Positions 22,746 through 27,150 of a DNA stretch of 41,313 bases are shown here, in pieces. How positions within the stretch are numbered: position 1 is the first letter of the stretch; each line of letters begins with the position of its first letter. The notes beneath the pieces were generated by a model that was not told the origin of the DNA, ran no database searches, and worked only from the letters and a program-made list of their open reading frames with translations. Both the position numbers and the translations under genes were made by a program. Source of the DNA: a virus; IMG/VR virus record IMGVR_UViG_3300032182_000456, positions 1-41,313 of that record. One strand, 5' to 3'.

Positions 22746-22952
22746 ATGTCATATATCAAAGTGTCGGGGCATGATGGTCTTGTCAGAGACGAGACCACAG
22801 GTGCCATCTTGAATCGCGACGATTCTGCTATCCAAGCGAGACGTAAACAAAAACAGTTGAATTCCGCGTTGGATGACATAAATAACTTGAAGGATGAAGT
22901 ATCTGAAATCAAAGCCTTACTGCGAGAGTTAATCAAAAATGCCAGCAATTAA
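22746..22952 (+). CDS. Small coiled-coil virion-associated protein
   Basis: A 68-residue protein that I do not recognise by function, although short proteins of this look occur between large tail genes of cyanophages. The N-terminus contains G-H-D-G-L-V-R-D-E-T-T-G-A-I-L-N-R-D, a motif I associate with small T4-like virion proteins. Residues 30-65 are charged and helical, with heptad-like hydrophobic spacing (L-N-S-A-L-D-D-I-N-N-L-K-D-E-V-S-E-I-K-A-L-L), which suggests a coiled coil. The start is nine bases after the DUF4815-type stop with no clear ribosome site, so it probably depends on translation of the upstream gene. The end overlaps the next gene by 14 bases. A possible role is to trimerise or anchor a fibre, but that is only inference. 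Confidence 0.8.
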   Translation: MSYIKVSGHDGLVRDETTGAILNRDDSAIQARRKQKQLNSALDDINNLKDEVSEIKALLRELIKNASN

Positions 22953-25900
22953 TGTCGCCAGAACTGACACCTTTGAGCAACAAAGGGTCAAAATCAACGA
23001 AATCGCAGAGGATCTATTTGATCTTACTGGAGGATCGGGTGGTGCTACAATTTCTCCAGCAGGAGTTTCTCTACAAGATGGTACAAAATCTGCTCCAGCA
23101 CTGACCTTTCAGTCTGACAATAAATTAGGTTTATACAAAAATAATTCTAATACTATCGGATTTGTTAGCAACGATAGATTAGCATTTACATATAATGATT
23201 ATGGTACATATTTTGAGAATGATTTATTCCTAAGGAATAACTTTCTAGATGATACGTATCTCAACATCACAGAGACTGGATCTGAATATGATGTAGGAAC
23301 TTACTCCAACGTTGCTTTGTTTGGTGGTAGTGGAGTAGGAGCTGAAGCAACTATTGTCATCGCAGAATATAATGGTCAAGAAACTGCAAACAGTAATGTT
23401 GATGAGTATGTAACTGGCATATACTCAAATATTCCTCTGGGTGGTGGAACAGGAAGTAATGCAGCAATTGACTTCCAAATCGTAACTACAGAAGTAGCAA
23501 CCAAGGGAATTATCCAGAATGGTGGAACCGAATATTTTCCAGGTATTTACACTAATGTAGCACTGGATGGTGGAACTGGAAACGGTAAGGTAGCAGACAT
23601 TGAAGTAACTGGTAGTATTACATTTAATTCTACTATCTCTAATGCTGGTACTGGTTATGTTGATGGCACATATCCAAGTGTTCCTGTTGATAACGTTCCA
23701 ACACAGACTATCAACCTAACAGTTGCTCAAAGAAAAGAGTTATTATTTACATACGGAAGACGTTACGAGTGGAACGTAACTGACGACGGAGCAAATACGA
23801 ATTTTGTTTTTGCTGGAGCAACTTCTGGAAATAATGTTGCTATTACTGCCGAAGAGGGAGATTATTTAGTATTCAATATTAACACACCAGGACATCCATT
23901 CTACTTACAATCAGTAGCAGGACCATATGATCCAGCAAATGTTTTAATTGCTGCTGATGGTGTAACAAATAATGGTACTGAAAGTGGTACTATTATTTTT
24001 GATACCAGTGAAGTTTTTGCTGGAACTTATTACTATGTTTGTGGAAACCATGGTTCGATGACTGGCACCATCACCATTGGAACTAACACAGGAAACTCAT
24101 TTGCTGTTGGAGATACTATTGTTGGTGCAAGTGGAAGTGGCACTGTTGTTAATTTTAATGATCAACTTGGAGCACTTTATTTTTCATCAGTAACTGGATC
24201 ATTTACAGTTGGAGAAGAAATTTCTGCTGCTGGCGCGTATGGAGTTGTAAAAGCAGTAGTTACAGATAAGTATCAATACTTACTAAATGGTACTGATACC
24301 ACTGCACTTAATACATCTGTTGATTATTCTCAAACTATTTTATTAGATACTTCAGATGCATCAAACAGTGGGTATGACATTGCTCTTACTGATGATTTTG
24401 GAGTAACACTAGACAATACAATTGTCAGATTAAAGAATTATGGCACTCCTGGACTTGCTGGTGCATATTCACTGCTAATCATAACACCAGAAGTTGTAAA
24501 TCAATCTATTACTGGATTAGGACTTACGCCAAGCACTGGTCCAGATGGAAGAGGTATTATTTTTGCAATATCTGCTACTCCAGCTATTGGGCAATATATT
24601 CTTGATCAAACCGCAAATGTAGAAGTATCTGGCGGTTCAATTATTGCTTGGGATATAGCAACTCTCGGAGCAAATTGGAAGTCAGGAGACCAAGTAACTG
24701 TAGATAACTCCTATCTTGGTGGAACTGGATCTGGTGCAGTAGTAGCATATACGTCTGTCACAATTGTTGGTACAGTTACTACTGTAACAATTACAACAGA
24801 AGGTATTGGATACGTAGAAGGAGATATTCTTTCTTTCAATAATTCTATTACAGGAAATAGCGGATCTGGTTTTGAATATAGAATCTCAAACCGAAGAGCA
24901 ATTTCCGATATTGTATTTGTCAATAGAGGAACTGGATATGTAGTAGGAGATATTTTAAGACTACCACCAGATCCAGGTAATTATGGTGGAGATGATGGAT
25001 TTGAGTTTGAGATTACTAAAGAGGGAACTCTCGAAAGTATTACAATTACAGATCCTGGTAGAAATTACTATACAGGTGATGTACTTCAATTAGATAGAAC
25101 TGCTCTTGTAGCAAACCCAGCAGGACTGTCTGGTAACGAAATAGAAGCTTCTATTGCAGTTACTGATATTGATAGTACAATTCCAATTACCATAAGTAAT
25201 ACTGGTGCATTATCTGTAACTGGATCTGTTACATCTACAACGGTAACGGCAAACACCGTAACTGGAAATACAACTGTAACCTCTCCTTTAGGAACATTTA
25301 CAAATTTAGAAGCAGATAATATTCTGCCAAATTCTACTAATAATATATCAGTATCTTCTCCACTAGGGAATTTAAATATTGATGCAGGATATATTTACGT
25401 TGGTGGTGTCAATGGCACTACACTCACAGTTGTTCCACTAACAGGAAATGTTACTACCACTGGAGTATTAAAAACTACTAACGAACTAAACGTAAATAAT
25501 ATTCTTTCTATTGTAGATAATAATATTTCCGTAGTTGGATCAGGTGATGATCTACTTCTAACCCCAGATGCAACAAAAGTTGTAAAGGTAGATGCAAATT
25601 CTGCTCTAACAATTCCAGTAGGATCTACTGCTGCAAGACCCCCATTAGGATTTGCAGCGGATGGACAAATTAGATTCAACACAGATACAAATCAATATGA
25701 AGGATATAGTGCTACGAATACTTCGTGGTCTTCCTTAGGTGGTATTAGAGACCTAGATGGAAACACATACATTCTAGCAGAACAAACAGTAGGAGCAAAC
25801 GATAATACTTTATGGTTCTATAATGATGGTGACAACACTGTAAGATTTACTCCATTCTATCAAGAATTTGTAGAAGTTAAAAAAGTAAGATCTGTAAATG

Positions 25901-27150
25901 TAACTGCTCCTGCGTATGTAAATTGGACTGCTAACACTCCTGTTGTTGCTGGAGATTATCTAAAGTATAAGCACGACATTTATATCGTAATTTCTCCTGG
26001 AACAACTGGCGTAACACAAGATCCACCAACTGATACTAGTGGTAATACATTTACAAATGGAACTGCAACTCTGCAGTATTCCGCATCTGCTGTAGCGGAT
26101 CTAACTTTTGAGGAGATTGGCACTTTAAAAATTGGTCCTGATACAGATGTACCATTAAGCATTAGCAGTGATCTAAGACTTGTAGGCAGCACTGTATCCA
26201 CAGATATCAGTGATCTGACCCTAGCACCAAATACTGGAAAGAAAGTTGTAGTTGATGCTAATACAACTTTGGCAATTCCAGTGGGAACAACTGCTGAAAG
26301 AGGTATTCCTATTCAGGGATCAATTCGTTTCAATACCACAACTTTCACATATGAAGGTTACGATGGAACTAACTGGGGTTCTCTTGGTGGTGTAAAAGAC
26401 GTTGATCAAAATACTTACATCATCCCAGAGACTGCTCCTGGTGCAAATGAGAACACATTGTTCTTCTATAACGATGGTAACAATACTGTTAATTTGACTA
26501 CCGCAAATCTTGAGATGCGCGGAGTTGATTCTATTAGCAGTCCTGTCTCAAATATCCTAGAATTTACTGCTTCCACAATTCTATTTGATAATGCCACAAC
26601 AACCCTCGACAACACTGCTGTAGATACTACATTTTTACATACATCAAAACAATACTTTGATCTTGGTCTTTCTTCTGGACTTAATACTGATCCAGTCTTA
26701 CGTTTGGATGATCAAGGTGATGTTTATTTCAATATTGGTTTTGGCACAGGAACCTTCTCTGGAGTTAAAGTTTTTGACGGAGAACTAAAAGACTTCGAAC
26801 TTGCTGATTATCAGATTGTAACGGAAACAATTAACTTGGATAAGGGTACTATCGATTCTGGTAGTGCTGATTTGTATGCAACTTCTGTCGCAATGGGTTC
26901 TAAGGTAACAGTTTTTGCTAACAATGCAACTACTGGTGAGAGAGAATTTATCGAGTATGCTGTTATAGATAATGGAACAGATGCATTCCACACTGAGTAT
27001 GGAAATGTAAGATCATCTGGTCAGCTCATTTCAACTGGTATTGAATTGACAGGAGCAGGTATCGTGAGAATTAATATTGACTTGGATGCAAGTGTGGCAG
27101 CTAATGATTTGGTTAATATTAAAGTAATTTCACAACTCGCTAAGAAATAA
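22939..27150 (+). CDS. Tail fibre-like protein with cupredoxin-like domain
   Basis: A 1403-residue fibre-like structural protein. Residues 1-100 contain the fibre motif G-T-K-S-A-P-A-L-T-F-Q-S-D-N-K-L-G-L-Y. Several beta motifs of the type G-G-x-x-Y-x-x-G-x-Y-x-x-V-x-L-x-G-G follow. Residues about 255-381 look like a cupredoxin: G-H-P-F-Y-L with H319, then Y-Y-Y-V-C-G-N-H-G-S-M-T-G with C368, H371 and M374, the complete His-Cys-His-Met type 1 copper set with amicyanin-like C-x2-H-x2-M spacing. Two tail-fibre modules of about 100 residues repeat near residues 872-973 and 1094-1189 (I-R-F-N-T, Y-E-G-Y, S-L-G-G, N-T-Y-I, F-Y-N-D-G). Between them, residues 995-1048 resemble a small surface-binding module. 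The start lies inside the preceding gene with GAGAG at 22924-22928 as ribosome site. It probably forms a fibre or whisker-like appendage; copper binding is a prediction. Confidence 0.87.
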   Translation: MPAINVARTDTFEQQRVKINEIAEDLFDLTGGSGGATISPAGVSLQDGTKSAPALTFQSDNKLGLYKNNSNTIGFVSNDRLAFTYNDYGTYFENDLFLRNNFLDDTYLNITETGSEYDVGTYSNVALFGGSGVGAEATIVIAEYNGQETANSNVDEYVTGIYSNIPLGGGTGSNAAIDFQIVTTEVATKGIIQNGGTEYFPGIYTNVALDGGTGNGKVADIEVTGSITFNSTISNAGTGYVDGTYPSVPVDNVPTQTINLTVAQRKELLFTYGRRYEWNVTDDGANTNFVFAGATSGNNVAITAEEGDYLVFNINTPGHPFYLQSVAGPYDPANVLIAADGVTNNGTESGTIIFDTSEVFAGTYYYVCGNHGSMTGTITIGTNTGNSFAVGDTIVGASGSGTVVNFNDQLGALYFSSVTGSFTVGEEISAAGAYGVVKAVVTDKYQYLLNGTDTTALNTSVDYSQTILLDTSDASNSGYDIALTDDFGVTLDNTIVRLKNYGTPGLAGAYSLLIITPEVVNQSITGLGLTPSTGPDGRGIIFAISATPAIGQYILDQTANVEVSGGSIIAWDIATLGANWKSGDQVTVDNSYLGGTGSGAVVAYTSVTIVGTVTTVTITTEGIGYVEGDILSFNNSITGNSGSGFEYRISNRRAISDIVFVNRGTGYVVGDILRLPPDPGNYGGDDGFEFEITKEGTLESITITDPGRNYYTGDVLQLDRTALVANPAGLSGNEIEASIAVTDIDSTIPITISNTGALSVTGSVTSTTVTANTVTGNTTVTSPLGTFTNLEADNILPNSTNNISVSSPLGNLNIDAGYIYVGGVNGTTLTVVPLTGNVTTTGVLKTTNELNVNNILSIVDNNISVVGSGDDLLLTPDATKVVKVDANSALTIPVGSTAARPPLGFAADGQIRFNTDTNQYEGYSATNTSWSSLGGIRDLDGNTYILAEQTVGANDNTLWFYNDGDNTVRFTPFYQEFVEVKKVRSVNVTAPAYVNWTANTPVVAGDYLKYKHDIYIVISPGTTGVTQDPPTDTSGNTFTNGTATLQYSASAVADLTFEEIGTLKIGPDTDVPLSISSDLRLVGSTVSTDISDLTLAPNTGKKVVVDANTTLAIPVGTTAERGIPIQGSIRFNTTTFTYEGYDGTNWGSLGGVKDVDQNTYIIPETAPGANENTLFFYNDGNNTVNLTTANLEMRGVDSISSPVSNILEFTASTILFDNATTTLDNTAVDTTFLHTSKQYFDLGLSSGLNTDPVLRLDDQGDVYFNIGFGTGTFSGVKVFDGELKDFELADYQIVTETINLDKGTIDSGSADLYATSVAMGSKVTVFANNATTGEREFIEYAVIDNGTDAFHTEYGNVRSSGQLISTGIELTGAGIVRINIDLDASVAANDLVNIKVISQLAKK
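23701..24081 (+). other. Cupredoxin-like domain (type 1 copper site) inside the fibre-like gene
   Basis: This segment encodes about residues 255-381 of the 1403-residue protein. It begins with a beta-rich stretch including Y-E-W-N-V-T and V-A-I-T-A-E-E-G-D-Y-L-V-F-N-I. It then carries H319 in G-H-P-F-Y-L and the C368-x2-H371-x2-M374 loop, followed by the strand T-G-T-I-T-I. The 49-residue gap from first His to Cys and the short metal loop match small blue copper proteins in general layout. The fold and copper site are predicted from motifs only. Confidence 0.75.

Follow-up and report, generated by a model that had tools for sequence, protein, structure and literature searches.

Structural proteins of marine phages carry a predicted cupredoxin domain that mostly keeps its type 1 ligands

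Cupredoxins are electron carriers of cells, and the C-x2-H-x2-M spacing at the copper site of amicyanin is the same as in the phage domain described here. Cyanophages are known to encode a cupredoxin in another form. PMC2984593 lists petE, the gene for plastocyanin, in S-RSM4, Syn9 and P-SSM2; like the domain, the product of this auxiliary metabolic gene is a phage-encoded cupredoxin, and it differs in coming from a separate, small, host-derived gene. A metal in the virion itself is described for iron: PMC11705849 places iron at HxH sites in T4 gp37 and other phage fibres, and takes in Alteromonas phage R22Y and the Trojan (Ferrojan) Horse hypothesis. These fibres and the Trojan Horse idea are the nearest precedent. 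The likeness is a metal held by the fibre apparatus of the virion, possibly for host contact, as is predicted here; the difference is iron at paired His residues in the fibres versus a folded, Cys-containing, putative copper domain in the present case. Literature searches found no published description of the domain, judging by titles and abstract openings and with most subscription papers outside their scope. The fold and the site are of a known kind; that they serve as a recurring module in virion proteins has, as far as these searches show, not been described. To our knowledge, no metal, spectrum or solved structure is known for the phage family.

The window, by which is meant the whole stretch of DNA analysed (41,313 bases), has a gene content that is, as read from its sequence, of the T4-like cyanophage type. 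Its PHROG matches include baseplate wedge proteins, and its second ORF has relatives annotated as gp6, adjoining gp25. An ORF at 38656-39207 matches phage 2OG-Fe(II) oxygenases (phrog_81, E 8.1e-35). The domain is carried by an ORF of 1403 amino acids on the plus strand (22939..27150; phrog_6005, E 0), the product of which is a virion structural protein of cyanophage type. The closest phage record to the whole ORF is ACG-2014h (S-MbCM7), with 47.6% identity in two pieces covering 66%. The preliminary description had labelled the protein fibre-like; its relatives are Synechococcus phage proteins named only virion structural protein or hypothetical (phrog_6005), and the label is not retained.

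The segment first singled out, 23701-24081, corresponds to residues 255-381 of this ORF. Alignment, an AlphaFold model and fold matches to blue copper proteins delimit the domain to residues about 272-381 (roughly 110 residues; 23752..24081, plus strand). The predicted first His ligand is H319 (23893..23895) in the GHPF motif at residues 318-321. The other predicted ligands lie in CGNHGSM (residues 368-374) and are the Cys C368 (24040..24042), the second His H371 (24049..24051) and the axial Met M374 (24058..24060), all on the plus strand. All four are supported by sequence, by alignment and by a profile alignment to plastocyanin; their positions, read directly from the ORF, are those of the preliminary description. 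The protein has a single Cys, C368, along with five His and four Met residues. In the six-frame translation of the window the CxxHxxM motif occurs twice, once in the domain and once in a reading frame of 16 codons.

The fold was predicted with AlphaFold for residues 264-387 from alignment A5, which consists of the window domain and 110 relatives from IMG/VR contigs, taken out of 131 candidates and every one picked for having all four ligands. The model has eight strands, a mean pLDDT of 93.8 and a pTM of 0.85. The 50 best PDB rows in Foldseek and the 50 best in VIA-align are all cupredoxins or multicopper oxidases, the absence of other folds from these lists being no evidence in itself. The top solved matches are 2dv6 (N-terminal region of the Hyphomicrobium nitrite reductase; Z 10.7, rmsd 2.9, 98 aligned) and, with the same Z of 10.7, 2cal (rusticyanin; rmsd 2.4, 97 aligned). 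The claim of a cupredoxin fold made in the preliminary description, for which a fold search had been proposed, is thus borne out at the level of the model. Against PDB sequences the A5 profile matches plastocyanin (E 5.6e-6), rusticyanin (1.6e-5) and amicyanin (8.5e-5), scores that are boosted by the shared ligand columns of rows chosen to hold all four ligands, and the profile alignment puts the four residues on the H, C, H and M of plastocyanin. As modelled, the domain has the Greek-key beta barrel of the cupredoxin fold and the type 1 ligand set His, Cys, His and Met in the right order and loop.

On family profiles the window domain scores low. Taken alone, the window domain scores 14.4 and 13.8 bits against PF00127, below the gathering cut-off of 21.2, and 15.1 bits (E 0.024) against the plastocyanin equivalog NCBIfam TIGR02656, which has a threshold of 87.85. 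PF00127 finds 81 of the 111 A5 sequences at E<=0.1, and the relative in the P-SSM2 tail spike exceeds the cut-off with 23.3 bits. The domain resembles plastocyanin, amicyanin, rusticyanin and the N-terminal domain of the Hyphomicrobium nitrite reductase in predicted fold and in the positions and identity of the ligands, and shares with cupredoxins the short C-x2-H-x2-M loop (146 of 151 intact phage clusters). Unlike them, it is embedded in large virion structural proteins, its window copy falls under the PF00127 cut-off, and its copper is a prediction from sequence. The residue after the first His is Pro in 148 of the 151 intact phage clusters versus Asn in the two plastocyanins compared, so the chemistry of the site may differ. 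His-Pro does occur at the type 1 site of multicopper oxidases.

Among predicted viral structures, the nearest of the 50 best matches are Prochlorococcus and Synechococcus phage proteins. Many of the 50 are unnamed, and only the last, a Fadolivirus protein, bears a copper-protein name. Predicted beta-sandwich proteins of Pithovirus and Marseillevirus match the model together with this Fadolivirus blue copper protein, and giant viruses may hold related domains. PF25489 (At5g54830-like domain) matches 22 of the 111 A5 domains, listed to E 0.1, with a best E of 8.7e-6, and may be an unrecognised cupredoxin relative.

Conservation of the ligands was assessed in sequences not picked by ligand, the invariance of H, C, H and M in the 111-sequence A5 being by construction and without evidential weight. 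An alignment of the window domain and 24 relatives, 21-78% identical to it (31 sequences were listed, of which 6 redundant ones were dropped), has H, Y, C, H and M as its only invariant columns. A chance motif is ruled out by the invariance of the four ligands in these 25 sequences. The peptide patterns of three viral-contig scans included the Cys or the first His in part, and never the second His or the Met; two other pattern scans used the Cys and the second His. A ligand-blind test was run on the window and 258 loci, the columns of all four ligands being masked in the search profile. It returned 403 domains, 317 of them distinct, in 187 clusters at 80% identity, and 151 of the 158 clusters with residues in all four columns read H-C-H-M. 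Exceptions were re-read by eye in their own ORFs, and 19 of the 187 clusters, in which the alignment misses part of the site, were left out as unreadable. All four ligands are kept in 152 of the 168 readable clusters, which answers the concern of the preliminary description that relatives might lose them freely. Both synonymous codons are in use at H, C and H.

The 16 exceptional clusters comprise two without one ligand, two without two, eight without three and four without all four, so that two single-ligand losses are observed against about 37 expected under independence. Six of the eight clusters without three ligands seem to belong to a single lineage; when these are collapsed, 11 cases are left, nine of them with two or more ligands lost. 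The four ligands act as a set, which is the behaviour expected of a metal site. Large ORF proteins at three loci (L064, L080 and L093) hold an intact cupredoxin copy beside a copy that reads C-S-L-Y-S-G-Y-G and has the first His replaced by Tyr or Arg, as if the metal were kept in one copy and lost in the other.

A second subfamily is marked by the pattern YYCxNHxGM, which occurs in at least 120 stretches of viral contigs; the same DNA pattern with Cys and His exchanged gave no match, which also disfavours a chance motif. Eighty loci among the matches listed hold 82 instances, and in 76 the frame stays open for 75 codons or more upstream. In the stretch 25-75 residues upstream, an H-[PEAS]-hydrophobic motif is present in 64 of these 76, and a His of any kind in 75 of 76, a figure weakened by another common His in that stretch. 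Alignment A6 uses 70 of 74 usable rows, with L272, L278, L312 (which has no upstream His) and L318 left out as odd; the first His is invariant in the 70 rows, and C, N, H, G and M are so by construction. The A6 model (pLDDT 98.1) has 2dv6 as its best PDB row (Foldseek E 2.7e-3, Z 9.5, rmsd 2.5, 96 aligned), and no row falls below 1e-3. The best rows of its Foldseek list are copper proteins, and other folds, such as the SO1698 aspartic peptidase, are present. Against PDB sequences the A6 profile gives antibody heavy chains at E 0.045 and worse, and plastocyanin only at 0.72. The link of this subfamily to cupredoxins rests on its model and on the profile-profile match to the first subfamily (99.6% probability, E 4e-24, ligands aligned).

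Phage records matched by the domain bear mostly cyanophage names. With the window domain as query, 37 phage records match at E<=1e-3; with that of P-TIM68, 353 of 50,697 do so at E<=1e-4, a count of domain matches in only part of which the ligands were read. By name the 353 are Synechococcus (271), Cyanophage (55), Prochlorococcus (19), Marine (5), Pelagibacter (2) and Actinomycetia (1), so that 345 carry Synechococcus, Prochlorococcus or Cyanophage names. For scale, the gp6-like protein of the window matches 373 Synechococcus and 61 Cyanophage records, the two lists not having been intersected. Together with the abundance of stretches in the viral-contig scans, three of the six having returned counts that are lower bounds, these numbers bear out the earlier suggestion that the domain is widespread in marine phages. 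Profile A5 matches 24 of 25 records, at up to five places each, 19 of the 25 having been fetched because the domain is present; among the six fetched via other searches (S-PM2, S-B43, S-WAM2, Syn1, S-RSM4 and S-MbCM7) five match, S-RSM4 at 8.6e-6 and S-WAM2 only at 7.1e-4. The S-PM2 record gives no match to A5 and a partial one to A6 (E 1.1e-3). A scan of bacterial and archaeal genomes found 34 pattern stretches, two of which encode relatives, both on Euryarchaeota MAG contigs (L257 and L258). Their phage-like cupredoxin domains have all four ligands, and the two may be viral contigs.

The carrier proteins are of several kinds. A sample of 60 rows evenly spread over the ranking of 354 has 49 that bear the annotation gp9 or baseplate wedge tail fibre connector; the annotations in the 60 are gp9 connector, hypothetical protein, and tail or virion structural protein, and never copper protein. 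In all ten gp9-annotated proteins fetched, the domain is C-terminal and has the full H, C, H, M set. The cyanophage gp9 connector (phrog_677) is made up of PF07880 and a C-terminal domain, and Syn9 gp9 and P-TIM68 have PF07880 at the end opposite the cupredoxin domain, in Syn9 gp9 the N-terminus. Of the 111 A5 members, 110 match phrog_677, among them the copy in the window. Unlike gp9, the window protein has no PF07880 (no match at E<=1) and its domain is internal, and an identification of the window protein as gp9 is ruled out on these grounds. The tail spike of P-SSM2 carries two copies of the domain, and a subtilisin-family (S8) peptidase of S-H9-1 (L021:2330-4336), just before a large structural gene, has a C-terminal cupredoxin domain. 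Proteins with the domain in ACG-2014e, ACG-2014h and S-BM3 also bear S8 names. At locus L265 the domain reads C-x2-H-x2-M. A recent capture of cyanophage petE as the source of the structural domain is rejected: cyanophage frames of 114-131 codons, which from length and match are inferred to be petE, give only weak matches to profile A5, at E 7e-4 to 2.5e-3. The best reading of this distribution is a mobile module in the baseplate (gp9), fibre, spike and other structural proteins of marine phages.

Homologs of the window protein itself vary in whether and where they carry the module. A contig 80% identical in the domain (L005) keeps it in place, the S-MbCM7 homolog has a divergent copy (GHPL...CSVHAGM) in the same place, and the S-RSM4 homolog has a copy further on (CLNHADM at 726). 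The S-PM2 homolog of the ORF has no CxxHxxM, and none is present in 12 proteins read from the structural region of S-CREM2. In the S-CREM2 genome profile A5 finds nothing at E<=0.01, and A6 has a single match, in ORF130, which is without CxxHxxM. Mass-spectrometry evidence for the domain in virions was sought in the S-CREM2 virion proteome (PMC10665884) and not found; where examined, that genome is without an intact site. S-PM2 and S-CREM2 thus seem to manage without the site in the proteins examined, and the module is common in this structural protein without being essential to it.

Several explanations of the site can be weighed against these data. The domain could be a metal-free relic, in which the fold is a beta scaffold only and the four residues are kept for packing. 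Some copies without the site do keep the fold signature, and Gly, Pro and Tyr columns that are not ligands are about as conserved as the ligands, so conservation alone is no proof of a metal site and joint loss is the stronger argument. The ligands go together and not singly, and the existence of ligand-free copies implies that packing does not need the four residues, yet most readable clusters keep them all; a relic is highly improbable. Alternatively, the natural ligand of the four residues in the particle could be a soft metal other than copper, namely Zn, Hg, Ag or Fe. The cytoplasm, where virions are built, is poor in copper, and its free copper is kept very low. Iron, moreover, is reported at His pairs in T4 and other phage fibres (PMC11705849). 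Against this stand the ligands and their loop, which match type 1 copper sites, and the listed structural matches, which are to copper proteins; another metal is considered improbable.

A redox function would have the copper site of the virion reduced or oxidised at the host surface, triggering a change in the fibre or baseplate, or shielding the particle from oxidants. Electron-transfer proteins are among the nearest relatives by profile and fold, and among the 162 clusters that have a residue in the column of the axial Met, 157 retain Met. No partner protein is known to us, however, and the copies, some single and others repeated along one protein, and spread over different kinds of protein, fit a binding module better than an electron wire; a redox role for the metal is considered unlikely.

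The reading preferred here is that residues about 272-381 probably form a cupredoxin domain with an intact type 1 ligand set, acting as a metal-locked knob in a structural protein of a marine T4-like phage. Sequence, predicted fold, homology, and the joint conservation and joint loss of the ligands, along with the presence of the module in several different structural proteins, point to a site that in life likely holds type 1 copper or some other soft metal. The domain would acquire a single copper ion; as free copper in the cytoplasm is so low, loading would most likely happen outside the cell or when it lyses. Copper would fix the domain as a small, rigid and exposed knob for binding within the fibre and baseplate network, and the knob would serve assembly contacts or contact with the host surface. 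That the role of the metal is mainly of this structural or adhesive kind is given about an even chance.

A broader suggestion, offered tentatively, is that many marine cyanophage virions are copper particles, each with several type 1 copper domains in the baseplate connector, fibres and other proteins. The copper would come from sea water or from the lysed host and would be used in recognition of the host surface or as a redox trigger of infection. If true, the particles would be for copper what the Trojan Horse idea proposes for iron, and they would act as a measurable organic copper ligand in the ocean. If copper is bound, a directly testable question follows, namely whether infection of Synechococcus or Prochlorococcus by these phages requires the metal and the four ligand residues. 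Bound copper would also be a new metal for virion biology and would tie phage particles to the copper chemistry of the ocean.
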